Positions 4,290-39,225 are shown, numbered from the stretch's first letter. The stretch: DNA of 39,844 nt from Fluviicola sp. (GCA_020849495.1 JADLGD010000094.1:1-39844), one strand, 5' to 3'. The notes: generated by a model from the letters alone, not told the origin. Translations and numbers: made by a program.

Positions 4290-4772
4290 ATGAATCTTGA
4301 ACAACATCTTGAGCATGCAATTGCAGAAAAAGAAACCTATAATAAATGGGTGAAGAAAGCAAAAAAAATCAATCCGCGTACACTTGATCAAGCTTTTCAT
4401 GATGAACATGTTCAAGTTTTCAAGAAAATAGATTGTTTGTCTTGTGCTAATTGTTGTAAAACGACCAGTCCAATTTTTAGAGATGTGGATATAAAGCGTT
4501 TATCTAAAAGACTAAGACTTTCAGAAGTGAATTTTATTAAACAGTACTTGAAAATGGATCATGAAGGCGATTATGTTTTGACCACTGCACCTTGTCCATT
4601 TTTAGGCGACGACAACTATTGTTCTGTTTATGAAGATCGTCCTCTTGCATGTAGAGAATACCCCCATACCGACCGCAAAAACATGTATCAAATTTTACCT
4701 TTGACCAGAAGGAATATGGAGGTTTGTCCTGCTGTTTCAATCATTGTTCAAGAATTGAAGAAAAAATTTTAA
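4290..4772 (+). CDS. YkgJ-family cysteine-cluster protein (Fe/Zn chelating)
   Basis: The 160-residue protein carries the YkgJ/CxxCxxCC signature: C49-LS-C52-AN-C55-C56, then C102 (APCPF), C111 (NYCSVYEDRP) and C121 (LACREYP). In the family (PF03692) these cysteines bind a metal, zinc or an iron-sulfur cluster; the biological role is not settled. There is no signal peptide, so it is cytosolic. It is divergent from the Lpd-like flavoprotein with only 59 bp between starts, so a shared redox context is possible but unproven. Confidence 0.9.
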   Translation: MNLEQHLEHAIAEKETYNKWVKKAKKINPRTLDQAFHDEHVQVFKKIDCLSCANCCKTTSPIFRDVDIKRLSKRLRLSEVNFIKQYLKMDHEGDYVLTTAPCPFLGDDNYCSVYEDRPLACREYPHTDRKNMYQILPLTRRNMEVCPAVSIIVQELKKKF

Positions 4773-4834: not shown

Positions 4835-6720
4835 ATGTTAAACAAAATTTGCTTGTTACCATTACTCTTAATGGTGTTTACTGTTTTTTCTCAAAGAGGA
4901 AAAAACGGTAGCTATACTGTAACAGCAGCAAACACACAATTAAATGCTTACACTTCATTGACAGCAAATGCTGCTGTGGGAGCAAATTCGATCACTGTAG
5001 CCAGTAATACCTTAACGAATGCCGTTTTAACTTCTGCACTTGCGGCGGGTGATTTAATCATGATCATTCAAATGCAAGGAGCAACGATGGATATTGATGC
5101 AACTCCAGCAACACCAGTAGCTTTAGGCGGTTGGGGAGGTACATATACAGTACCTATTGGTCATCAAGGAGATTGGGGAAGTTATCAAGATTTATGGGGG
5201 CAAGTAACAAATTATAACAATGCTGGAAAACACGAAGTGGTTGAAGTGCGATCTGTTGCAGGAGGTACAACCATTAATTTAATGTGTTCATTAACAAATT
5301 CATATACTGCTTCAGGACACGTACAAATAGTTCGGATTCCACGATTAATAAATTTGACTGTTAATGCTGCTTGTTCTGTAGTGCCTGCTTTATGGGATGG
5401 TACAATAGGTGGAGTTTTAGCATTAGAAGTAAATGGAATTTTGAGCTTGAGTGGATCAATTACAGCAACAGGTTATGGTTTTAGAGGTGGTGTTTGTGAT
5501 TTACAAACTGCTGGATCACCACCCCCAAGTGCTACTGGTGTTGGTTATTGTGCATCATCTGCTGCAATTGAAGGAGCAGAAAAAGGTGAAGGAATTGGCG
5601 GTTTCTATGCTGAATACGATGCGCTTTATTCACGCTATTGTAAATCAGCTCCAGCTAATGGAGGTGGGGGCGGAGGAAACCACAATGCTGGAGGAGGTGG
5701 AGGTGCCAATGTTGGAACAGGAGCCTACACTGGTAAAGGGAATCCTGTTGCAGGATATGCAGCCATTTGGAATTTAGAAAGTCCAGGATTTGCTACTTCA
5801 ACTAGTTCTGGTGGAGGTAGAGGTGGGTATTCCTATTCTACTGGTAATCAAAATGCAGCAACAGTTGGACCAAATAATACACTTTGGAGCGGTGATTATA
5901 GAAGAAAAGAAGGTGGACTTGGTGGTCATCCATTAACCTATAATGCAAGTTGTGTTTTTATGGGTGGCGGTGGAGGAGCTGGAGATGCCAATTCAAATCC
6001 AACACAAGGTGGTGCAGGTGGCCGTGGTGGTGGTATAGTTTACTTAACAGTTTACGGTTCAATTACTGGTACAGGCGCAATTCAAGCAAATGGAGCTGCT
6101 GGACAAAATGCGAATCCTTTAGGACAAGTTGCAATACCTCTTTCTAATGCAAAATATGGAAATGACGGTGCCGGTGGAGCTGGTGGTGGAGGTGCAATTG
6201 TTATTTCTAATGGTACAGCTATTCCCGCTACAATTACTCTTTCTGCAACAGGTGGAGTTGGTGGAAATCAAGTAGTTTCTTTTGGTAATTTTGCTTCTCC
6301 TGCAATGGAAGCAGATGGTCCGGGCGGTGGCGGAGGTGGTGGTATGATTAAAGTTACTTTTACTAGTGGAGCCCAATCTGTTTTAGGCGGTGCTGGTGGT
6401 ACTACAAATTCTGCTCATGTAAATTTATTCCCTCCAAATGGAGCAACTGCGGGTGCTGCTGGAATTTCAGGAATTGTTCAACCATTTTTTGATTTAACGA
6501 CAGCAAACGTGACCATTTGTAGTGGAACATCTACTACCTTAACTGCTACAGTAGTTGGTACTTTGCCTGGTACAATTACATGGTATTCAACCCAATTTGG
6601 TTCAACTGTCTTGGGAACAGGTACTTCTTTTACAACTCCAACATTAACTGCAACGACAACTTATTATGTTGGAACTTGTCCTAGTACATTTAGAAAAGCG
6701 GTTGTAGTTACTGTTTCACC
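4835..6720 (+). repeat. Duplicated head region, copy 1 (partner 7629-9552)
   Basis: This part of the first glycine-rich gene aligns with the start of the next gene throughout. Uninterrupted identical DNA blocks include 5767-5826 (=8585-8644, 60 bp), 5884-5937 (=8702-8755, 54 bp) and 6428-6468 (=9258-9298, 41 bp), while flanking codons differ. Confidence 0.85.
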
Positions 6721-7525
6721 TCTTCCTACAATAAATACGACATCCATGATTATAAACAATGTCACTTGTGTAGGGAATGATGGAAGTATAACAGGAATAA
6801 CTGCATCGGGAACTAGTTTGACTTACTCTTGGTCAAATGGCCCGATTACATTAAATAATACAGGTTTATCAAATGCGACTTACACGTTAACAGTAACTGA
6901 TAACTTGGGTTGTATAGCAACTTTAGCAGTTCCAGTTGGGACAAATTGTGTCTTACCGATTGAATTGTCGCATTTTTATACTTTCTGCAATGATGAACAA
7001 CAATCTGTTATTCGTTGGGAAGTAAACAATGAAGTGGATGTTGAAAATTATGAGTTGAGTGTAAGTACTAACGGGGTCGATTTTAATCCTTTATATTTGA
7101 TACCAAGTTATTCAAATACAGTTTATCCTTTAGCTTATGAGCAGATTGATGATAATAGATATGCTGGTTTTTCTTTATTGTATTATCAATTAAAAACTAT
7201 TCGAGAGAATGGTGAAAGTGAATCTGTTGCAATAGTTAGCCAAGAGAATTGCATCAACGATCGTCAAGCTGATTGTTTGCTTTCATTTCCAACTAATATT
7301 TCTTCCAACTCATTTGAAATTGTTGGTTCAAATTGGAAAGCTCCTTATTTAGATTTTGATATAATAGATATGAATGGGCGAGTTGTACAGTCGTTTAACT
7401 ATAAAATCGATAGTGAAAACTTCAATTTAAAAGTGTTTTTAGATGCTACATTAATGAAAGGAATGTATTTTCTAAAATCCTCCACAGAAGTGCCATTCTG
7501 TTCTTCTAAAATAATTATTGAATAG
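4835..7525 (+). CDS. Giant glycine-rich T9SS-secreted surface protein, type A sorting domain (896 aa)
   Basis: Start ATG 4835 gives MLNKICLL and a signal peptide ending VFSQ (about residue 20); the open frame upstream encodes no sensible N-terminus. Order: conserved head with VALGGWGGTYTVPIGHQGDW (about 90-110), a motif GIGGFYAEYDALYSRYC (about 252-268), Gly-rich tract (about 275-515), an Ig-like domain starting ICSGTSTTLTATV (about 560-628), one SprB-type repeat with CVGNDGSITGI and TDNLGC (about 629-702), a linker starting PIELSHFYTF (common in T9SS substrates), and a type A sorting domain (about 815-896; IIDMNGRVVQSF, LMKGMYFLKS). Expected to be exported by T9SS and attached to the cell surface. 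It is a tandem paralogue of the next gene. Function unknown; adhesion or matrix is inferred. Confidence 0.88.
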   Translation: MLNKICLLPLLLMVFTVFSQRGKNGSYTVTAANTQLNAYTSLTANAAVGANSITVASNTLTNAVLTSALAAGDLIMIIQMQGATMDIDATPATPVALGGWGGTYTVPIGHQGDWGSYQDLWGQVTNYNNAGKHEVVEVRSVAGGTTINLMCSLTNSYTASGHVQIVRIPRLINLTVNAACSVVPALWDGTIGGVLALEVNGILSLSGSITATGYGFRGGVCDLQTAGSPPPSATGVGYCASSAAIEGAEKGEGIGGFYAEYDALYSRYCKSAPANGGGGGGNHNAGGGGGANVGTGAYTGKGNPVAGYAAIWNLESPGFATSTSSGGGRGGYSYSTGNQNAATVGPNNTLWSGDYRRKEGGLGGHPLTYNASCVFMGGGGGAGDANSNPTQGGAGGRGGGIVYLTVYGSITGTGAIQANGAAGQNANPLGQVAIPLSNAKYGNDGAGGAGGGGAIVISNGTAIPATITLSATGGVGGNQVVSFGNFASPAMEADGPGGGGGGGMIKVTFTSGAQSVLGGAGGTTNSAHVNLFPPNGATAGAAGISGIVQPFFDLTTANVTICSGTSTTLTATVVGTLPGTITWYSTQFGSTVLGTGTSFTTPTLTATTTYYVGTCPSTFRKAVVVTVSPLPTINTTSMIINNVTCVGNDGSITGITASGTSLTYSWSNGPITLNNTGLSNATYTLTVTDNLGCIATLAVPVGTNCVLPIELSHFYTFCNDEQQSVIRWEVNNEVDVENYELSVSTNGVDFNPLYLIPSYSNTVYPLAYEQIDDNRYAGFSLLYYQLKTIRENGESESVAIVSQENCINDRQADCLLSFPTNISSNSFEIVGSNWKAPYLDFDIIDMNGRVVQSFNYKIDSENFNLKVFLDATLMKGMYFLKSSTEVPFCSSKIIIE

Positions 7526-7628
7526 CTTTTCCAACATCCAGAAATTTGATATAATTTTAGTACAAATTTCCAGAGATTATACAACCTTTACAAATGGTTT
7601 GCGTCTTAGGAATGTTAGAACAAGCGAC

Positions 7629-9552
7629 ATGTTAAAATTTCTCTCCTTACTTACTATTTTTTGTTTGAGTAATCTATTATTTGCTCAACGCGGTATTCAC
7701 GGTAGTTATATCAATTCTACTACCAATAATCAGCTAAATACTTATTCCCAAGTAACAGCAAATGCCAATGTTAATGCAACAAGTATTACTGTTGCTGCCA
7801 ACTTAACTGCTCCAGGGAATGAATTACTAAATACGTTTTTTACTTCTAATCTAGGACCTGGTGATTTAATCATGATCATTCAAATGCAAGGTGCAGCGAT
7901 GAACATTGATCCAACACCTGCAACACCCATAGCTTTAGGCGGTTGGGGTGGTACTTACACTGTTCCAATTGGTCATCAAGGAGATTGGTCTAGTTTTCTT
8001 GAATTATGGGGGGATATTACCAATTACAATAATGCTGGAAAATATGAAATTGTTGAAGTGAGAAGTATCACAGGAACAAATACGATCAATTTAATGTGTG
8101 GCTTGCAGAATGCATATTCAACAGCTGGTCATGTTCAAATTGTTAGAATTCCTCGTTTGCAAAATTTGACATTGAATGCGAACACATCAATCTCACCTTT
8201 ACTTTGGAATGGTACTAAAGGTGGGGTCGTTGCTTTAGAAGTCAATGGGAATTTAACCATGAATACAGGTAGTAAAATTCTTGCAACTGGATTTGGATTT
8301 AGAGGGGGTGTTTGTGAAACTAACACCTACGGTTCTCCTCCAGGAGGAGGTGCAGCTTCTGTTGGTTATTGTGCTTCAAGTGACAATAAAGAAGGAGCTG
8401 AAAAAGGCGAAGGAATTGGCGGTTTCTATGCTGAATATGATGCGCTTTATTCGCGTTATTGTAAGTCTGCTCCTGCAAATGGCGGTGGAGGCGGAAACAA
8501 TCACAACGCTGGTGGTGGTGGTGGCTCCAATGTCGGCAACGGTACCTATACAGGAAAAGGAAATCCTCAAGGATATGCTGCAAGTTGGAATTTAGAAAGT
8601 CCAGGATTTGCTACTTCAACTAGTTCTGGTGGAGGTAGAGGTGGATATTCTTATTCGACAGTTGATTTAAATGAAACGACACAAGGTCCTAATTTGGCAA
8701 CTTGGAGCGGTGATTATAGAAGAAAAGAAGGTGGACTTGGTGGTCATCCATTAACTTATGATGCAACTCGTTTATTCATGGGCGGCGGCGGTGGCGCAGG
8801 TGATGCGAATAGTACAACTGGTGGTGTTATTCAAGGAGGTGCAGGTGGTAGAGGTGGAGGAATTGTTTTTCTACAAGTCTATGGAACTGTAACAGGAACG
8901 GGAACCATTGAATCTAATGGTGTTAATGGACAAAATGCAAACCCAACTGGATTAACTGCAAATCCAAATTCTACCACTAAGTATGGAAATGATGGAGCTG
9001 GTGGTGCTGGAGCTGGAGGTTCAATTGTAATTTCTAATGCTGCTTCTTTGCCAACTACAATAACTTTATCTGCTACAGGCGGTAATGGAGGTAATCAAGC
9101 TATGTCTTATGGGAATTTTGTTTCTAGCCCTACGATGGAAGCTGATGGTCCTGGTGGTGGTGGTGCCGGTGGTTTAATTAAAGTGACTTCAACAAGCGGA
9201 ACACAATCTGTTGCTGGTGGAACTGGAGGAACAAGTAATTCAACTCACATTCCTAATTTCCCTCCAAATGGAGCAACTGCGGGTGCTGCTGGAATTTCTG
9301 GAATTGTTCAACCGTTTTTTGATATTACAGTAGCTAACAGTTCAATTTGTTCTGGTAATACTGCAACATTGACAGCTACAGTGGTTGGAACGTTACCTGG
9401 TGGTGCTATAGTTACTTGGTACTCTTCTCAGTTTGGTTCAACAGTAGTAGGTTCTGGAACAACGTTTACAACTCCTACATTAACAACAACGACAACCTAT
9501 TATGTAGGTACCTGTCCCGGAACTTTTAGAAAACCGGTTACTGTTACCGTAG
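7629..9552 (+). repeat. Duplicated head region, copy 2 (partner 4835-6720)
   Basis: Second copy of the head module, offset 2,818-2,830 bp from the first. Perfect 60, 54 and 41 bp blocks are listed under copy 1. The change in offset reflects small in-frame indels between the copies. Confidence 0.85.
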
Positions 9553-11951
9553 GTGGACCAAGTATTTCTGGAACAGCTACTGTTACAAATGCAACTTGTA
9601 CAACAGGTGGTTCAATTACTGGTTTAACAGCTAGTGGAGGTATCGCTCCATTGACAATTACTTGGAATGGGATTGTTAATCCGACCATGAATATTTCCAA
9701 TTTAACAGCTGGCAATTATACGGTTTTGGTTACCGATAATGCTGGATGTACGGCAACATCAGGTCCATATACAATCACTTCATCAGGAGGTCCTACTGTT
9801 AATACTGCGGCAATGGTTGTAACAAATGCAAACTGCTTGGGTAATAATGGTTCGATTACAGGTATAACAGCTACAGGTACTGGTTTAACTTACAGTTGGA
9901 ATAGCAATGCTTTTACTACCCTAGATATTTCTGGTTTGGCTGCTGGAACATACACTTTAACAGTTACTGATAACAATAGTTGTACTGCTTCTGTAGGTCC
10001 TTTAACCATTACGCAAACTGCAGGTCCATCCATTGATGCTACAAATGTAATTGTAACTAATTCAACGTGTTCATTAGCAAATGGTTCAATTACTGGATTG
10101 GTTGCAACAGGAAACGGATTAACTTATACTTGGAATGGAAATGCGAGTGCTTCCATTGACCAAAATAATCTAGCTGCAGGAAGTTATACTTTAGTAGCGA
10201 CAGATAACATAGGTTGTCAAGTAACGTACGGACCAACAACAATTACTTCGTCTCCTGGGCCAACGGTTGATGTATCCAATGTGCTTTTGAATGATGAACA
10301 TTGTGGCAGCTCAGATGGAAGTATCAGTGGAATTATTGTAAATGGAGGAACTCCAACTATTGTGTATTCTTGGAATAGCGGTGCTTACACAACGCTTGAT
10401 ATTGCCTCTATTCCTGCAGGAAGCTATAGTTTAACTATCACTGATGGGAATGGATGTATTGCGAATGCAGGTCCATTTACCATTGCATCGATTGCTGGTC
10501 CAGTTATCTCAACAACGAATATGGTTGTTACTGATGAATCGTGTGCTGGAAATGATGGATCAATCACTGGAATCACTTCGAGTGGAAGTAATTTAACTTA
10601 TCAATGGAACTTGGTACCAAGTACAGGTTTAGATCTAAGTAATCAAGTTGCTGGTAATTATGTGTTGACAGTAACAGATGCTTTTGGTTGTACGGATCTA
10701 GAAGGTCCAATTGCTATTGGTGGTCCAATTCCAATGAGTTTGGATTCAAGTAACTTAGTAATCACTCCTGCTGGTTGTACAGTTGATAATGGTGCAATTT
10801 CAGGTTTGACAGTTGTTGGTGGTGTTTTTCCTGTTGTTAATTGGAACAATGGTGATCAAACATTAGACATCAACAATCTAGCTCCAGGTCAGTACAATAT
10901 CACGATTGTTGACGGACAAAACTGTACCATTAATGCTTCTTTCAATGTTACAACGTTCACTGATTTAGCTATTTCGACTGCAGGTGTTATGATTGTGAAT
11001 GACGCTTGTAATCAAGGAACAGGTTCCATTTCTGGAATTACTATTAGTGGCGGAACAACTCCTTATCAATATGAATGGGACAATGATCCGCTTTTAAATA
11101 ATTTGAATTTGTCGGGGGCATCAGGTGGTAATCATACGATTTTAGTTACAGATGCAGTTGGTTGTACTGTAACAGCAACAGTTAATGTTGGAATGACAAA
11201 TTTACCAGTGGTAAATGATAACACCTTGAATGTAGTGGATGCAACTTGTGGAAATGCTAATGGTTCTATTTCAGGCTTAAGTGTTACCGGTTCAGCTCCA
11301 TTTACTTATGTTTGGATGGGAACAGCTTCTACTACTCTGGATATCTTTAATTTAACAGCTGGAAATTATTCGCTTACAGTTACGGATGCTTTGGGTTGTT
11401 CATCTACACCTTATGCAACAGTTGTGAACGGTGCGGGTGCACCAAACGCTGATTTTACTTATACGAGTGGAGTTATCGTTCCAGGATCTACTGTTGATTT
11501 TAATGATGCTTCTACTGGAACAGCAATTAACTCATGGGAATGGTCAATCAATTCGGCGGCACCATTTGCGACAAACCAAAACACTTCCTTTTTATTTGCC
11601 AATGAAGGAGAGTTTACGGTTACTTTGGTCATTGAAACAGCTGAGGGTTGCATCGATTCGATCACGAAGTTGATTACAATCTATGGTGAAATCATCATTC
11701 CGAATGTCATAACGGTAAATGGTGACCAAATGAATGATGTGTTTGATATCGTTAATTTAAAACCAAATACAACACTTATTATTCAGAATAGATGGGGGAA
11801 TGTTGTTTTTGCAACGGAAGATTATTTGAACAATTGGAAAGGGACAGATCAACTTGGAAATCAATTGGTAGAAGGAACCTATTTTTACCAAATAATCACT
11901 GTAGAAGGCAATACATGGAAAGGATTCGTTCAATTGATAAATAAAGATTAA
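7629..11951 (+). CDS. Giant glycine-rich surface protein with eight SprB repeats, PKD and gliding-type T9SS C-terminus (1440 aa)
   Basis: Start ATG 7629 gives MLKFLSLL and a signal peptide ending LLFAQ (about residue 20). The head (to about 640) is a close paralogue of the preceding protein: GGWGGTYTVPIGHQGDW, GIGGFYAEYDALYSRYC, Gly-rich tract (about 285-515), Ig-like domain (about 560-640). It is followed by eight SprB-type repeats (about 642-1270), a PKD-like domain (ADFTYTSGVIVPGSTVDFND, about 1275-1354) and a gliding-motility-associated C-terminal domain (IIPNVITVNGDQMNDVF, QNRWGNVVF, GTYFYQI; about 1355-1440), a known T9SS signal. SprB itself is the mobile gliding adhesin of Flavobacterium johnsoniae; this protein shares repeats with it but is far smaller. 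Adhesion or motility is inferred. Confidence 0.9.
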   Translation: MLKFLSLLTIFCLSNLLFAQRGIHGSYINSTTNNQLNTYSQVTANANVNATSITVAANLTAPGNELLNTFFTSNLGPGDLIMIIQMQGAAMNIDPTPATPIALGGWGGTYTVPIGHQGDWSSFLELWGDITNYNNAGKYEIVEVRSITGTNTINLMCGLQNAYSTAGHVQIVRIPRLQNLTLNANTSISPLLWNGTKGGVVALEVNGNLTMNTGSKILATGFGFRGGVCETNTYGSPPGGGAASVGYCASSDNKEGAEKGEGIGGFYAEYDALYSRYCKSAPANGGGGGNNHNAGGGGGSNVGNGTYTGKGNPQGYAASWNLESPGFATSTSSGGGRGGYSYSTVDLNETTQGPNLATWSGDYRRKEGGLGGHPLTYDATRLFMGGGGGAGDANSTTGGVIQGGAGGRGGGIVFLQVYGTVTGTGTIESNGVNGQNANPTGLTANPNSTTKYGNDGAGGAGAGGSIVISNAASLPTTITLSATGGNGGNQAMSYGNFVSSPTMEADGPGGGGAGGLIKVTSTSGTQSVAGGTGGTSNSTHIPNFPPNGATAGAAGISGIVQPFFDITVANSSICSGNTATLTATVVGTLPGGAIVTWYSSQFGSTVVGSGTTFTTPTLTTTTTYYVGTCPGTFRKPVTVTVGGPSISGTATVTNATCTTGGSITGLTASGGIAPLTITWNGIVNPTMNISNLTAGNYTVLVTDNAGCTATSGPYTITSSGGPTVNTAAMVVTNANCLGNNGSITGITATGTGLTYSWNSNAFTTLDISGLAAGTYTLTVTDNNSCTASVGPLTITQTAGPSIDATNVIVTNSTCSLANGSITGLVATGNGLTYTWNGNASASIDQNNLAAGSYTLVATDNIGCQVTYGPTTITSSPGPTVDVSNVLLNDEHCGSSDGSISGIIVNGGTPTIVYSWNSGAYTTLDIASIPAGSYSLTITDGNGCIANAGPFTIASIAGPVISTTNMVVTDESCAGNDGSITGITSSGSNLTYQWNLVPSTGLDLSNQVAGNYVLTVTDAFGCTDLEGPIAIGGPIPMSLDSSNLVITPAGCTVDNGAISGLTVVGGVFPVVNWNNGDQTLDINNLAPGQYNITIVDGQNCTINASFNVTTFTDLAISTAGVMIVNDACNQGTGSISGITISGGTTPYQYEWDNDPLLNNLNLSGASGGNHTILVTDAVGCTVTATVNVGMTNLPVVNDNTLNVVDATCGNANGSISGLSVTGSAPFTYVWMGTASTTLDIFNLTAGNYSLTVTDALGCSSTPYATVVNGAGAPNADFTYTSGVIVPGSTVDFNDASTGTAINSWEWSINSAAPFATNQNTSFLFANEGEFTVTLVIETAEGCIDSITKLITIYGEIIIPNVITVNGDQMNDVFDIVNLKPNTTLIIQNRWGNVVFATEDYLNNWKGTDQLGNQLVEGTYFYQIITVEGNTWKGFVQLINKD
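9554..11440 (+). repeat. Eight SprB-type protein repeats
   Basis: Eight units of about 75-85 codons, each with a first Cys shortly before a GSITGI/GSISGI-like motif, a central W-N core, an AGxYxLxVTD strand and a second Cys in DNxGC/DAxGC. The units have diverged at both the DNA and protein level, so this is an old expansion and not a slipping microsatellite. The preceding paralogue has one unit. Confidence 0.85.
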
Positions 11952-11996: not shown

Positions 11997-12563
11997 ATGC
12001 AAACCGGAACTATAAACATCAATACGAAGCAAATTCTTTCATCCTTTGTAACAGAGATGAACGATAAGGGTATGAAAAATATCACGCTCGCTCATATTGG
12101 TGGTGTCAATCAAGATTTAATTAATAGTCTTTCTACAAATGTGGAAGATTTTATGATTTCTGCTGGCGACAAAAAACCATTGATAAAACGTGTTTTTAGT
12201 ATTGTCATTGAAGGATTGCAAAATGTATTGATTCACGGTGAACGTTTGGATGGAGTGCGCCTAGGTTTGTTAGTGATCGCCAATAATGAATCCCTCTATC
12301 GTGTATCGATGGGAAACATTACCCAGGTTACTGAAAGAGAAAAAATCACAGCTTATTTGGATAAATTAAACCAATTCGATGACGAAGAGGTGAAATCATT
12401 TTATTTAGAAACGCTCAACAATGGATTGATTTCTGAAAAAGGAGGAGCTGGTTTAGGCTTTATCACCATGCGTATGAAATCAAAACACCGTTTGGATTAT
12501 CAATTTTTAGATCTAGGAGATGGATTGTTGTTTTTCTCTATTACAACTGATTTAGAACGTTAA
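11997..12563 (+). CDS. SiaB-like (GHKL-fold) protein kinase / anti-sigma-type regulator
   Basis: The 188-residue protein has the layout of SiaB-family kinases: an N-box helix with EGLQNVLIHGE (about residues 73-83), and a G-box GGAGLGFITMRMKSKHR (about 145-161). In Pseudomonas SiaB phosphorylates the STAS-like protein SiaC and so tunes a diguanylate cyclase. No siaC-like gene is adjacent here, although a true STAS protein with a phosphorylatable Ser motif lies at 17210. A near-match -7 box TACCTTTA is at 11970-11977. Family placement is from motif and length; substrate is unknown. Confidence 0.75.
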   Translation: MQTGTININTKQILSSFVTEMNDKGMKNITLAHIGGVNQDLINSLSTNVEDFMISAGDKKPLIKRVFSIVIEGLQNVLIHGERLDGVRLGLLVIANNESLYRVSMGNITQVTEREKITAYLDKLNQFDDEEVKSFYLETLNNGLISEKGGAGLGFITMRMKSKHRLDYQFLDLGDGLLFFSITTDLER

Positions 12564-12605
12564 TTCCCTTTTTAAACTTTTACAACTCCAAATTGTTTGC
12601 TAGGA

Positions 12606-13514
12606 ATGTCATTTCACGTAGCATTTTCGCCGATTTATGTTCACGCTGTTCCAGAAGGACATCGTTTTCCAATGCTTAAATACGATTTACTTCAACAACA
12701 ATTGGTTTTAGAAGGATTAGTAGAATCAGCAGATTTTGTTCACGCTTCACCGATTCAATTGAAATATCTAAAAGACGTGCATTCTGAAGCCTATTTAAAC
12801 AAATTGATTTCACTTAATTGTACACCTAAAGAACAACGCGTTTCTGGTTTTGAGCACAATTCGGAATTGATTCAACGCGAGTTAGTCATCATGGAGGCTA
12901 CTCGTTTGTGTGCAAAGTTGGCACTAGAAACAAATGGTGTTGCTTTGAATATTGCAGGTGGAACACATCATGCTTACGCTGATAGAGGAGAAGGTTTTTG
13001 CTTGTTGAATGATCAGGCAATTGCAGCGAATTGGTTACTGAAAGAACAATTGACCGAACGAATTCTCATCATTGATTTAGATGTGCATCAAGGAAATGGA
13101 ACGGCAGCCATTTTTCAAAACAATCCATCCGTCTTCACCTTTAGTTTTCACGGTGCAAGTAATTATCCATTGAAAAAAGAGTTGTCCGATTTGGATGTTG
13201 CATTACCAGATGGCACAAATGATCAAGCTTATTTATCACTTTTAGAATTACATCTTTCGAAAGTTATTGCTGTATTTAAGCCTACGTTTCTCTTTTATCA
13301 ATCTGGTGTTGATGTGTTGGCAACGGATAAATTGGGAAAATTAGGTCTTTCAATTGAAGGAACAAAACAGCGAGATCGTATCGTATTTGAGTTTGCTAAA
13401 TCATTAAACATTCCCATTGTTTGCAGTATGGGCGGAGGGTATAGTAAAGAAATTCGTTACATTGTAGAAGCGCACATGAACACGTTTCGATTGGCACATT
13501 TTTATTTTTCATAG
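12606..13514 (+). CDS. Histone deacetylase-like (AcuC/HDAC superfamily) hydrolase
   Basis: This 302-residue Zn-dependent deacylase has the expected active-site series: GGTHHAYADRGEGFC (His-His pair), LIIDLDVHQGNGTA (Asp and His zinc ligands), YQSGVDVLATDKLG (third zinc Asp) and the GGGY loop near the end (MGGGYSKEI). In bacteria such enzymes remove acyl groups from lysines or polyamines; the substrate here is not predictable. ATG 12606 was chosen over the upstream TTG because MSFHVAFSPIYVH fits the family start. It sits 42 bp after the SiaB-like gene on the same strand. Confidence 0.92.
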   Translation: MSFHVAFSPIYVHAVPEGHRFPMLKYDLLQQQLVLEGLVESADFVHASPIQLKYLKDVHSEAYLNKLISLNCTPKEQRVSGFEHNSELIQRELVIMEATRLCAKLALETNGVALNIAGGTHHAYADRGEGFCLLNDQAIAANWLLKEQLTERILIIDLDVHQGNGTAAIFQNNPSVFTFSFHGASNYPLKKELSDLDVALPDGTNDQAYLSLLELHLSKVIAVFKPTFLFYQSGVDVLATDKLGKLGLSIEGTKQRDRIVFEFAKSLNIPIVCSMGGGYSKEIRYIVEAHMNTFRLAHFYFS

Positions 13515-17552: not shown

Positions 17553-18464
17553 ATGAGTTTTGAGGTAACCATTCTCGGTTCCGGCGCAGCGCTTCCAACA
17601 GCTCTAAGAAATCCTACAGCTCAATACGTTTTTTGTAATGATCGTCACATCCTCATCGATTGCGGTGAGGGAACGCAGAATCAGTTGCGAAAAGCAAAAA
17701 TTCACATTCAAAAAATCAATCACATTCTCATTTCCCATCTTCATGGTGATCATTATTTTGGCTTGGTTGGTTTTTTAAGCAGTTTACATTTATTAGGTCG
17801 AGATAAAGGGATCACCATCTACGGTCCCGAAGAATTGGAACAAATCATTCGACTTCAACTAGAAGTAGGTGGCGCACAATTGGGTTTCTCCCTCGAATTT
17901 GTTCCGTTGAATGGAAAAGAACACAAATTGTTATTTGAAGATAAATTAATCGAAATCTGGACCTTTCCTTTGAAACATCGCATTCCAACCAATGGCTTTT
18001 TGATCAAAGAAAAAGAAAAAGAACGCCATCTAGATGGAGATAAATTCAAACGTGATGGCTTATCACTTACCTGTATTCCCAAATTTAAAAATGGGGAAGA
18101 TGTGATATTGGAAGATGGAACTGTTTTGGGAGCCGCTGATTACACGTATCCATCCAAAAAACCAAAAAGTTATGCGTATTGCTCAGATACCATTTACACG
18201 GAAAATATCATTCCTTTCATTGAAAAGGCTACTTGTTTGTACCATGAAGCAACATTTTTGCACAATAAACTAGATCGCGCTAAAGCGACTTTTCATACAA
18301 CCGCTTTACAAGCTGGAATGATTGCTGATAAAGCAGGTGTGCAAAAGCTGTTAATTGGACATTTAAGTGCCCGTTATGAAAATGGTCAGCTTCATGAATC
18401 TGAAGCTAAAACCCATTTTCAAAACGTAGAAGTAGTAGAGGATGGAACTATCTATCAAATTTAA
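17553..18464 (+). CDS. rnz: Ribonuclease Z (tRNA 3' endonuclease)
   Basis: 303 residues, standard short-form RNase Z. The metallo-beta-lactamase signature HLHGDHYFGL (about 63-72) supplies the zinc ligands, with GSGAALPT near the N-terminus, CSDTIYTE, LYHEATF and LLIGHLSARY downstream. It removes the 3' trailer from tRNA precursors in the cytosol. It follows the STAS gene with 1 nt spacing. Its stop region overlaps the stop of the convergent gene by 4 bp, with no hairpin terminator between. Confidence 0.96.
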   Translation: MSFEVTILGSGAALPTALRNPTAQYVFCNDRHILIDCGEGTQNQLRKAKIHIQKINHILISHLHGDHYFGLVGFLSSLHLLGRDKGITIYGPEELEQIIRLQLEVGGAQLGFSLEFVPLNGKEHKLLFEDKLIEIWTFPLKHRIPTNGFLIKEKEKERHLDGDKFKRDGLSLTCIPKFKNGEDVILEDGTVLGAADYTYPSKKPKSYAYCSDTIYTENIIPFIEKATCLYHEATFLHNKLDRAKATFHTTALQAGMIADKAGVQKLLIGHLSARYENGQLHESEAKTHFQNVEVVEDGTIYQI

Positions 18465-19621
18465 TTCACGATGATTTTTAATCTGTTTGATTCTTCATCA
18501 GAGAAAAGCACAAAGTAGCCGTCTAAATCACTCAAATCATAGGTGTTTGATCCGTTTAAAACCTTTACCAATTTTCCATCTAACGAAACCACTTGAATGG
18601 TCGCTGATGCTGTCGTATGCAACGTTTGATTGGTAGTGTTAAAAACTATTGTTTTTGGTTGGTAAGCAATACTAATCATTTTACTTTCTTCTCGTTGCAT
18701 CAGAGAATTGTAAATGTTTAACGAAAAGTAATTCACTCCAATCGCCGGATGTTCAAATAGAATTGAATAATCAGCACCTTTTGAATTATTTCCTTCTGAC
18801 GGAACAGTTGCAATTTTATTGAATGCTAGTACTTCTGTTGCATGTTGAATTTCAAAATGATCGATTCGCGTTTCGGAGATTGTTTGCCAATTCAGTTCTA
18901 CTTTCCCTGCTTTATTCAAATGAGCAGTAAAACCATTCAATTCGATAGGTAATGCAATATTTGATAAACTTACAGAACAATCATTGTCGCCATAAAAATT
19001 GGCTACACCTCCTGTATTTGACCAATTTGCGAATGCACCATCATTTCCAAATGCTCCTGGTAAGGTGTAATTGTATTGCAAGCTTGACGTTCCTAAACTA
19101 TTGGTAAAAACAGATGAGAAATAACGTGTAGCTCCCGTTCCATTTCCAAAATTACCTCCACTAGACCAAGTAGCATCTGTTGAATAAACAATGTAGATGG
19201 GAGCTGAACCACATAAAAGTGACCAAACCAGAGCATTGTTACAAATGGTGTTTTTAACAATGATAAAAGGTTGGTTAGCTGGAATGGTTGTTCCCGCTGC
19301 ATCGATAAACAAAGCACAACCAGCAGCAGTATTCAGAGCAGCTGTAGTTACAGCATTATTGGTGAAAGCATCTGTATAAGTTGCTGTTGGAGCAGGAGAA
19401 GAGCCATAAGTGACTTGCATATTGGCAGGTGTAGCAAGTAAACTTCCTCCTCCAGTGTTGCCAAAGATCACTTCATTGTCACCTTCTCCGCAACTACCAT
19501 TACAAGAATTGATCAATACACTGGTGATGTAAGCGTTTTGGCTAAAGGCATTTTCAAAAGAAACAACGAATAGTAAAAACAAGAACCCTGTTTTTAAACC
19601 TTTTAGAGAAGTAGCTTTCAT
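18461..19621 (-). CDS. T9SS type A secreted protein of unknown function (386 aa)
   Basis: Signal peptide ending ENAFSQ (about residue 28). The N-terminal half (ITSVLINSCNGSCGEGDNEVIF, about 32-53, with PFIIVKN) recalls the lamin-tail-like domains found in secreted Bacteroidota proteins, a family guess only. PIELNGFTAHLNKAGKVELNWQ (from about 226) is the linker usual in T9SS substrates, and the last 70 residues form a type A sorting domain (IQVVSLDGKLVKVL, LDGYFVLFS, RLKIIVN). It is expected at the cell surface or in the medium. It stands alone behind its own -7 box (19641-19648). Confidence 0.82.
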   Translation of the reverse strand: MKATSLKGLKTGFLFLLFVVSFENAFSQNAYITSVLINSCNGSCGEGDNEVIFGNTGGGSLLATPANMQVTYGSSPAPTATYTDAFTNNAVTTAALNTAAGCALFIDAAGTTIPANQPFIIVKNTICNNALVWSLLCGSAPIYIVYSTDATWSSGGNFGNGTGATRYFSSVFTNSLGTSSLQYNYTLPGAFGNDGAFANWSNTGGVANFYGDNDCSVSLSNIALPIELNGFTAHLNKAGKVELNWQTISETRIDHFEIQHATEVLAFNKIATVPSEGNNSKGADYSILFEHPAIGVNYFSLNIYNSLMQREESKMISIAYQPKTIVFNTTNQTLHTTASATIQVVSLDGKLVKVLNGSNTYDLSDLDGYFVLFSDEESNRLKIIVN

Positions 19622-36918: not shown

Positions 36919-39225
36919 ATGAAATTTATTATTCTTTTTCCAACAATATTGTTTTGTTCAATATTGTTTTCCCAAGTAATGGTTGATTCACCTCAATATG
37001 ATTCATTGAAGTTGCTAAATCAATTAAATAATGTAGAACTAGTGTATGATACTTCTTCTACTGTTTTTCTTCCTACTGTAATATCTCCATCATCGAATGA
37101 AAAATCAGGTGCTTGTGATTGTTATGTTGAACCAGATGGGACATATACTCTTGCCCTTCTTCCTAATGATGACGGGTCTTCAAATTTGATAAATATTCCA
37201 TTCAACTTCTGTATGTATGGTCAAACATATAATCAGATTTATATCAATAATAATGGAAATGTTACTTTTACTGGACCGATGGCAACATTTAGTGCTACTG
37301 CTTTTCCATCAGGTGGTAATAATCCGATCATTGCTCCATTTTGGGGAGATGTTGATACAAGAGGAGGTTTTGGACAAGTTTTATATAAAATTACTCCCAC
37401 TGCTGTTTTTGTAAATTGGAAAGATGTTGGATATTATGACACTCATGGAGATAAATTAAACAGTTTTCAACTAATAATTACGGATGGTGCTGATCCCGTT
37501 ATTTCTTCCGGAAATGTTGCGTTTTGCTATAAGGATATGCAATGGACAACTGGAGATGCATCTAATGGGGTAAATGGTTTTGATGGAGTACCAGCAACTG
37601 CTGGTGCTAACAAAGGTGATAACATTTCTTTTTTCTTAATCTCAAGGTTTGATCATGCTGGGAATGATTTTGATGGTGCATTAGGGAATGCTGATGGTAT
37701 AAGCTGGTTAGATTACAAATCATTTTATTTTGATGTTTGTAACATTGGAAATGTTCCACCTATCGCTGAAGGTATTTCAGCATGTGATACGTTTAAAATC
37801 TGTGCATTAGGAGATACAGCAGATATTTCTATTAATTTTTTATCGCCTGAAACAACTCAAAGTACTTCGATTACATTTTCAAATGGTGGATTGACAACTT
37901 TACAAGAAGTTGGAAATATAAGTGGAAATACAGCATCCATAATTTTAAGAGCTGTTGGTGATTTAGCGTCAATTGGTAGTTGGAATGTTACAGTTACTGC
38001 TACAGATGATGCAACTCCAACACCAGGTGTAACCACTATTTCTTTCGTTATTCAAATTGATACAACAGGATTGTCAAATTTAAATCCACAATTAACACCA
38101 CTAGAGGCTTGTGATTCACTTACAGTTTCTGTTTTGAATGGTCCTTTTGATTCATATTTATGGGATGATTTTAGTACTGGTAGCACCATGTTTTTAGATT
38201 CAGCTCAAAATTTCGGGGTTACTGTAAGTTTAAATGGTTGTTACAAGCGAATTGAAGAATACTTTTCGATTGCAGAACCATTTTCTATAAATTTGGCTGG
38301 TAATTTTTCAATTTGTTCACCAGATACTATTACTAATCTATATTTACCTGATTCATTATCTTTTGGAAATGTAACATGGGGTATTCCAAACCCTGCGCTG
38401 GATTCGCTTTTTTCTGCAAATTTAACTGCTGGTACATACACATTGACAATTCAAGACAGTTTGTTTTTATGTCAAGAAGACACAACCTTTACAATTAATT
38501 ATAATCAAGCACCATTAATATTTGAAGATACGTTTGCTTGTAATTTTCAATTCAATGTTTCAGGAACTTTTGCAGTAAGTGGTGGTGTTTGGTCATCTCC
38601 TGATACTAATATTCGGTTTTTACCTAATGAAACAGTATTGAATCCTTCAATAACATCAAGTATTCCAGGTACATATACTATTAATTTTACTGATAATACA
38701 TGTGGAATAGAATTATCGTCGACTATCTTCTTTGAGAACTGGGCTTGGACTAGTCTACCTGATACCGTAATATGTGAGGGATCTAGTGCTGTGATTACAA
38801 GTTATGCTGCATCTCAAAATGACACTTATTTATGGAGTACAGGTTCTACAGAAACTGCAATTACGGTAAGTTCTTCCGGAACATATTATTTAACTGTTTC
38901 AAATGAATGTAATGATTATACAGATTCGTCAATTGTAGGTATTAAAATCTGTGATATTCAAGCACCAAACATTATTGTCCTTAGTTCAACTCAAGGGAAT
39001 AATGAATTTGTAATCAATTACAGTGGGGTGAAAGAGTATCGAATTACAATTCAAAACCGATGGGGTAACAATATTTGGGAGTCTATTAATCCTGCTGATT
39101 ACTGGAAAGGAAAAACTTCCAATGGTGCAATTGTAGAAGAAGGCGTTTATTTCTATACGATTAAAGCGGTATTGGATAATGACGAAGAATTAGAAAAACA
39201 AGGATGTGTTCATGTCTATCATTGA
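36919..39225 (+). CDS. Nidogen-domain surface protein with gliding-type T9SS C-terminus (768 aa)
   Basis: Signal peptide ending SILFSQ (about residue 19). Residues about 85-250 look like a NIDO (nidogen extracellular) domain: INIPFNFCMYGQTYNQIYIN, NGNVTF, NPIIAPFWGDVDTR, AVFVNWKDVGYY. Several Ig/cadherin-like beta domains follow (about 265-680; GSWNVTVTATDDATP, LWSTGSTETAITVSSSGTYYL). The end (about 680-768) is a gliding-motility-associated C-terminal domain (QNRWGNNIWE, DYWKGKTSNG, EEGVYFYTI). It is expected to be secreted by T9SS and cell-attached; adhesive function is inferred from NIDO. Divergent from the transketolase operon. Confidence 0.87.
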   Translation: MKFIILFPTILFCSILFSQVMVDSPQYDSLKLLNQLNNVELVYDTSSTVFLPTVISPSSNEKSGACDCYVEPDGTYTLALLPNDDGSSNLINIPFNFCMYGQTYNQIYINNNGNVTFTGPMATFSATAFPSGGNNPIIAPFWGDVDTRGGFGQVLYKITPTAVFVNWKDVGYYDTHGDKLNSFQLIITDGADPVISSGNVAFCYKDMQWTTGDASNGVNGFDGVPATAGANKGDNISFFLISRFDHAGNDFDGALGNADGISWLDYKSFYFDVCNIGNVPPIAEGISACDTFKICALGDTADISINFLSPETTQSTSITFSNGGLTTLQEVGNISGNTASIILRAVGDLASIGSWNVTVTATDDATPTPGVTTISFVIQIDTTGLSNLNPQLTPLEACDSLTVSVLNGPFDSYLWDDFSTGSTMFLDSAQNFGVTVSLNGCYKRIEEYFSIAEPFSINLAGNFSICSPDTITNLYLPDSLSFGNVTWGIPNPALDSLFSANLTAGTYTLTIQDSLFLCQEDTTFTINYNQAPLIFEDTFACNFQFNVSGTFAVSGGVWSSPDTNIRFLPNETVLNPSITSSIPGTYTINFTDNTCGIELSSTIFFENWAWTSLPDTVICEGSSAVITSYAASQNDTYLWSTGSTETAITVSSSGTYYLTVSNECNDYTDSSIVGIKICDIQAPNIIVLSSTQGNNEFVINYSGVKEYRITIQNRWGNNIWESINPADYWKGKTSNGAIVEEGVYFYTIKAVLDNDEELEKQGCVHVYH

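Follow-up and report, generated by a model that had tools for sequence, protein, structure and literature searches.

A tandem pair of Fluviicola surface proteins with one shared head and T9SS tails of different types

What the tail of a T9SS substrate does after export has been shown only recently, by man-made swaps in one species. Type A C-terminal domains (CTDs), which have seven strands and a near-invariant Lys (PMC10994853), are carried by PorV, followed by release or attachment to LPS (F. johnsoniae, P. gingivalis); type B CTDs are carried and also anchored by PorP/SprF proteins, some of them on the gliding track; and when CTDs are exchanged, fates are exchanged with them (PMC12618676, PMC9143113, PMC10994853). 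In F. johnsoniae specifically, SprB given a type A CTD is either released or anchored statically, and AmyB and RemA given the type B CTD of SprB are placed on the gliding track (PMC12618676). These artificial swaps, SprB-CTD(RemA/AmyB) and RemA/AmyB-CTD(SprB) (PMC12618676), resemble the genes described here in giving one passenger a CTD of either type, A or B; but they are laboratory-made, whereas our pair is natural, recurrent, and within one genome, and its stalk is changed too.

The pair lies in a window of 39,844 nucleotides, the whole stretch of DNA analyzed here, from Fluviicola sp. (GCA_020849495.1 JADLGD010000094.1:1-39844). Gene B resembles SprB, the type B T9SS gliding adhesin of Flavobacterium johnsoniae, in the SprB repeats of its stalk and in its CHU_C/type B CTD, but has an AgmC_N-like head and no adjoining PorP/SprF gene. 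Gene A resembles type A T9SS substrates (RemA, RemZ, NucA, gingipains) in its Ig-like type A CTD, predicted to have seven strands, but differs from them in that its head is that of the type B protein encoded next door. The head itself is akin to the AgmC N-terminal domain (NCBIfam NF047640, named for adventurous gliding motility), which matches all 30 of the heads scanned (best 1.4e-56); the window heads, however, fall far under the equivalog cut-off (139.8 and 123.8 bits, with 146 also obtained for A, against 275) and have T9SS tails attached, and they appear to be a domain related to AgmC that is not to be filed as AgmC. A literature search of incomplete coverage on AgmC found none.

Architecture of the two proteins

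Two ORFs are confirmed as neighbors on the + strand in head-to-tail order, with ATG start codons at 4835 (A) and 7629 (B).

4290-4772 (+), conserved upstream neighbor: CxxCxxCC metal-chelating protein
4835-7525 (+), gene A, 896 aa: signal peptide, head, one SprB repeat, Fn3-like domain, divergent type A T9SS tail
4892-6484 (+), gene A head: AgmC_N-like beta plus Gly-rich domain, mature residues 1-531 (NF047640 E 1.2e-40; pLDDT 95.2)
6485-6715 (+), gene A Ig_7 domain, closing the head (Ig_7 E 2.6e-14; Z 10.7 to a GhpA Ig domain)
6722-6946 (+), gene A single SprB repeat
6953-7261 (+), gene A Fn3-like domain (LPIEL module)
7262-7522 (+), gene A divergent type A CTD: seven strands, Lys892 near the C-terminus (24.7 bits, below cut-off)
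7629-11951 (+), gene B, 1440 aa: signal peptide, head, eight SprB repeats, PKD-like domain, type B (CHU_C) CTD
7686-9551 (+), gene B head with its Ig_7 domain (75% identity with the A head)
9552-11437 (+), gene B stalk: eight SprB repeats of ~78-80 residues each
11439-11672 (+), gene B PKD-like domain, weak (PKD_4 21.2 bits, cut-off 27)
11691-11936 (+), gene B CHU_C/type B T9SS CTD
11997-12563 (+), conserved downstream neighbor: DUF6272
12597-13514 (+), conserved downstream neighbor: histone-deacetylase family (HDAC)

Both signal peptides, as read from the sequence, end directly before QRG; that of gene A is an N-terminal Sec signal peptide, MLNKICLLPLLLMVFTVFS. The mature heads align over ~609 residues with about 74-75% identity (E 8.3e-276), and A and B are the only strong copies of the head in the host genome (99.6% complete). 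The initial annotation had proposed a common head of about 630 residues with swapped tails. The common head is real and the tail classes do differ, but likeness runs past the head (the SprB repeat of A is 59% identical to the second repeat of B), and the arrangement is not a static swap, the window heads having exchanged sequence by gene conversion. The domains that had been read behind the heads are also there: one SprB repeat and a type A sorting domain, albeit a divergent one, in A; and in B exactly eight repeats by motif, a PKD domain that stays below its cut-off, and a gliding-type CTD that is clear (PF13585, CHU_C, 73.7 bits; TIGR04131, 37.9 bits over a cut-off of 35). Six stretches of gene B pass PF13573 individually, with an overall score of 27.3 bits against a cut-off of 28. 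An assembly artefact behind the tandem is ruled out by a relative, G050, whose single 4.55-Mb contig has the same A-B order.

The CTD of gene A scores 24.7 bits against PF18962 (Por_Secre_tail; Pfam cut-off 27) and 19.2 bits against TIGR04183 (cut-off 23). We accept it as type A because i) homologous A copies in relatives, among them G056, G138, and G133, pass the Pfam type A cut-off (28 to 41.8 bits); ii) in the tail model, residue 109 onward is predicted to form a seven-stranded CTD; iii) a profile built from 28 such A-type tails finds solved type A CTDs (8glk 4e-8, 8glj 2.5e-5, gingipain 5hfs 0.21); and iv) Lys892 near the C-terminus is kept and, in our reading of the alignment, probably takes the same position as the near-invariant Lys of type A CTDs. 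Fn3 and Ig-like domains took up the Foldseek list for the A tail, with no T9SS CTD among the matches listed, although the sequence profile did match T9SS CTDs. Because a home-made type A model picked up some B tails as well, each tail was assigned to the class with the higher score, together with a reading of its C-terminus. The LPIEL Fn3-like module recurs in the protein at 18461-19621, whose tail, type A-like but very degenerate, is missed by Pfam.

A cognate PorP/SprF gene usually, if not obligatorily, adjoins the gene for a type B substrate. None is present beside B or anywhere on the window contig, making B an "orphan" type B substrate; such orphans exist (PMC12618676), and a lone B may therefore still be counted as type B. 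Another CHU_C type B tail in the window belongs to a Nidogen-like (NIDO) protein at 36919-39225.

The host genome encodes SprA, PorV, 16 PorP/SprF-family matches (all away from the window contig), and at least 150 type A tails. Together with the different CTD classes, this inventory supports the earlier two-route reading at the level of sequence: A would leave by PorV and B by PorP/SprF, a routing that we infer from CTD class. Because a type A tail allows surface retention as well as release, A and B might both be found on the cell surface.

The shared head

An AlphaFold2 model of the head, built on a 90-row alignment, has a mean pLDDT of 95.2 and a pTM of 0.94. The Gly-rich tract is modelled at high confidence almost without helix or strand and might, at a guess, pack in the manner of polyglycine. 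The final 77 residues are an Ig_7 domain whose nearest relatives are the Ig domains of the Aureispira grappling hook protein GhpA (Z 10.7, 75 residues, 1.8 A), although the match to GhpA is limited to that one domain. The initial annotation had called for a structure prediction and had named ordinary low-complexity sequence as the alternative to a conserved fold; the confident fold, 90 aligned homologues, and AgmC_N matches in 30/30 heads rule that alternative out. The head is a real and widespread domain, the NF047640 type being present in 39 of 395 genomes sampled evenly across the phylum; the closest outside relative of the heads in a first scan was a Fluviicola MAG.

Foldseek matches of the head model are dominated by its Ig domain. 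They also include an alignment of 608 columns between the model (window 4892-6715) and a predicted PA14-domain protein of Bathycoccus virus (E 7e-16, TMq 0.43), and matches to other algal and giant virus proteins; a sequence search for viral or phage relatives found none. The sole PDB match of the head in a sequence search, 1vhe (E 5.6e-4), was judged to be chance.

The locus and the tails in relatives

A head match is present in 112 of 240 family genomes, and the 129 heads of the tree set comprise 96 with type B tails and 8 with type A tails, the rest being cut or unread; type B tails are the rule in the family. In the Fluviicola-genus genomes inspected, B occupies a conserved locus in the order CxxCxxCC gene, B, DUF6272, HDAC. 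This linkage is also seen in the window (4290-4772, 11997-13514), though HDAC was not seen in every genome: in G138 and G133, DUF6272 is present at the B locus and HDAC is absent from the stretch read. The CTD of window B has 56-59% identity with other Fluviicola B tails but only 34-35% with those of G050 and G056, in which B sits at the same conserved locus with a type B CTD subtype unlike that of the window and of other Fluviicola genomes (L129:5072-9829 in G050; L004:9929-14692 in G056). A distant paralogue of the head, mostly ~2260 aa, occurs in nine Fluviicola-genus genomes (L197, L198) and was not found in G000 (the window genome), G050, or G056, which have the A/B tandem instead.

Other pairs with the same head and alternative tails, for which the initial annotation had proposed a search, do exist: A-tailed copies occur in five family genomes (G000, G050, G056, G138, G133), and all five also have B. 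A lies between the CxxCxxCC gene and B only in G000, G050, and G056, and elsewhere in G138 and G133, in each of which A and B are on different contigs (G133 has 7% contamination). Most Fluviicola-genus genomes are without an A copy. Within a genome the A and B heads are 82% identical in G138, 80% in G133, 83% in G056, 82% in G050, and about 74-75% in the window. A literature search of incomplete coverage for natural A/B pairs with one head found none.

Trees of the heads nest A among B, with A heads grouping by lineage with their own B, and join A with B in G138 (94), A with B in G133 (100), and the A copies of G050/G056 with the G050/G056 B copies (99). A single A clade is rejected by an AU test on the heads (p 3.6e-31), and with it a single origin of the A tails, with gene conversion as a caveat; pairing of the two window heads within Fluviicola is not rejected (p 0.29). 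Because conversion distorts head trees, we give the number of A origins as a range, 3 to 4 in this family. The description of the pair as a natural experiment is thus better founded than was foreseen, the A/B split having arisen repeatedly in relatives.

Gene conversion and the origin of the pair

The window heads share 68 codons in identical runs of at least 8 codons, against 8.6 expected, and none of 5000 shuffles preserving amino acids and silent identity gave as high a number. The longest run is 19 codons (p 0.0015), and the longest exact DNA common to A and B is 60 nt.

5768-5824 (+), in A: longest gene-conversion patch, 19 identical codons (partner 8586-8642)
5885-5935 (+), in A: gene-conversion patch, 17 identical codons (partner 8703-8753)
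6428-6466 (+), in A: gene-conversion patch, 13 identical codons (partner 9258-9296)

The other A/B pairs and the cross-species comparisons tested gave no excess of identical codons, although silent sites in the other pairs may be near saturation, which limits this null result.

The A tails do not look orthologous and would come from a large shared pool, the A tail module being a member of a pool with many copies per genome. Window A's tail matches an unrelated 1822-aa protein of its own genome (E 1.7e-12) more closely than it does the other A tails (G138 5e-6, G133 2.5e-4, G056 3.6e-4, G050 1e-3), and the G056 tail matches many proteins about as well as it matches that of G133; both observations favor separate captures. 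One spacer domain per A precedes the LPIEL Fn3 module. In the window it is an SprB repeat, and in G138 and G133 it consists of repeats of B-stalk kinds; that of G050/G056 is another domain, whose unlikeness to the SprB stalk of B is a point against re-tailing.

We think it probable that the head has been duplicated and re-tailed recurrently and so is exported along two T9SS routes, PorV and PorP/SprF. B, whose product is a long-stalked type B T9SS surface protein headed by an AgmC_N-like domain, would be the old gene of the conserved locus. Several lineages would have duplicated the head and joined the copy to a generic cassette of Fn3 and type A CTD, in the window bringing one stalk repeat along. 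B would be exported by a PorP/SprF-type shuttle and stay anchored on its long stalk, possibly on the gliding track; A would be exported by PorV and then released into the medium or held near the surface on LPS; and gene conversion in the window would keep parts of both heads alike while the tails differ. Architecture, homology, repeated re-tailing, and conversion patches make up the observed part of this explanation. From these we infer the shuttles, the final locations, a common ligand, and an adhesive role; conservation of the head and conversion suggest that A and B have a common function.

The main rival is a single ancient A/B pair that predates the split of the lineages, with whole heads homogenised repeatedly by gene conversion within genomes, which would give the A heads a young appearance, and A tails that diverged fast. 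Conversion is real in the window, A precedes B at the same site in G000 and G050/G056, and the rejection within Fluviicola of a single A clade (p 0.004) as well as a single B clade (p 0.0003) is what homogenisation would give. We nonetheless consider an ancient pair rather unlikely, since the A copies of G138 and G133 are not adjacent to B, an A copy is missing from most Fluviicola-genus genomes, the A tails are not mutual best matches, and the other pairs are without an identical-codon excess (subject to the saturation noted above). Under either reading, one head would have two delivery routes. It is less likely again that A and B share one destination, with CTD class mattering little and only stalk length differing: RemA (type A) and SprB (type B) are indeed both motility adhesins in F. 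johnsoniae (PMC10202324), but CTD swaps altered destination in the same species (PMC12618676). Ordinary duplication and decay, with A a shortened, dispensable copy whose tail is degenerating and whose head likeness reflects youth only, would account for a CTD below the Pfam cut-off and for the presence of A in few genomes, but is very improbable given that A has an unbroken reading frame, five genomes retain a pair of this kind, the A copies of G050 and G056 still show 89% likeness in the head and 80% in the tail, and three A tails (G056, G138, G133) score above the Pfam cut-off.

If recurrent re-tailing is correct, nature seems to have repeated the experiment lately done by hand in laboratories, and the several natural matched pairs, with the same head and host genome and a different tail class, make the role of the tail in final location testable in natural proteins. 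They also suggest a modular exchange of T9SS tails, which would extend to swaps between type B subtypes. Tentatively, and with more doubt than confidence, we suggest that Crocinitomicaceae-like bacteria repeatedly re-tail one adhesin head so that it is delivered in two forms at once, one shuttle-anchored and possibly gliding, the other released or bound to LPS, and that conversion keeps the heads matched for the same ligand or for mutual binding; shed A might, for example, coat a surface that B-carrying cells then grip.

Outside the family, three genomes (G633, G635, G637) have A only, so that A tails are not always paired with B. One locus there (L048:4693-14596) has tandem heads that both carry type B tails, of different CTD subtypes (35% identical). 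A further set of Bacteroidota genomes (L111, L115, L117, L119, L123) has as many as four AgmC_N-type heads per genome, frequently joined to type A tails.
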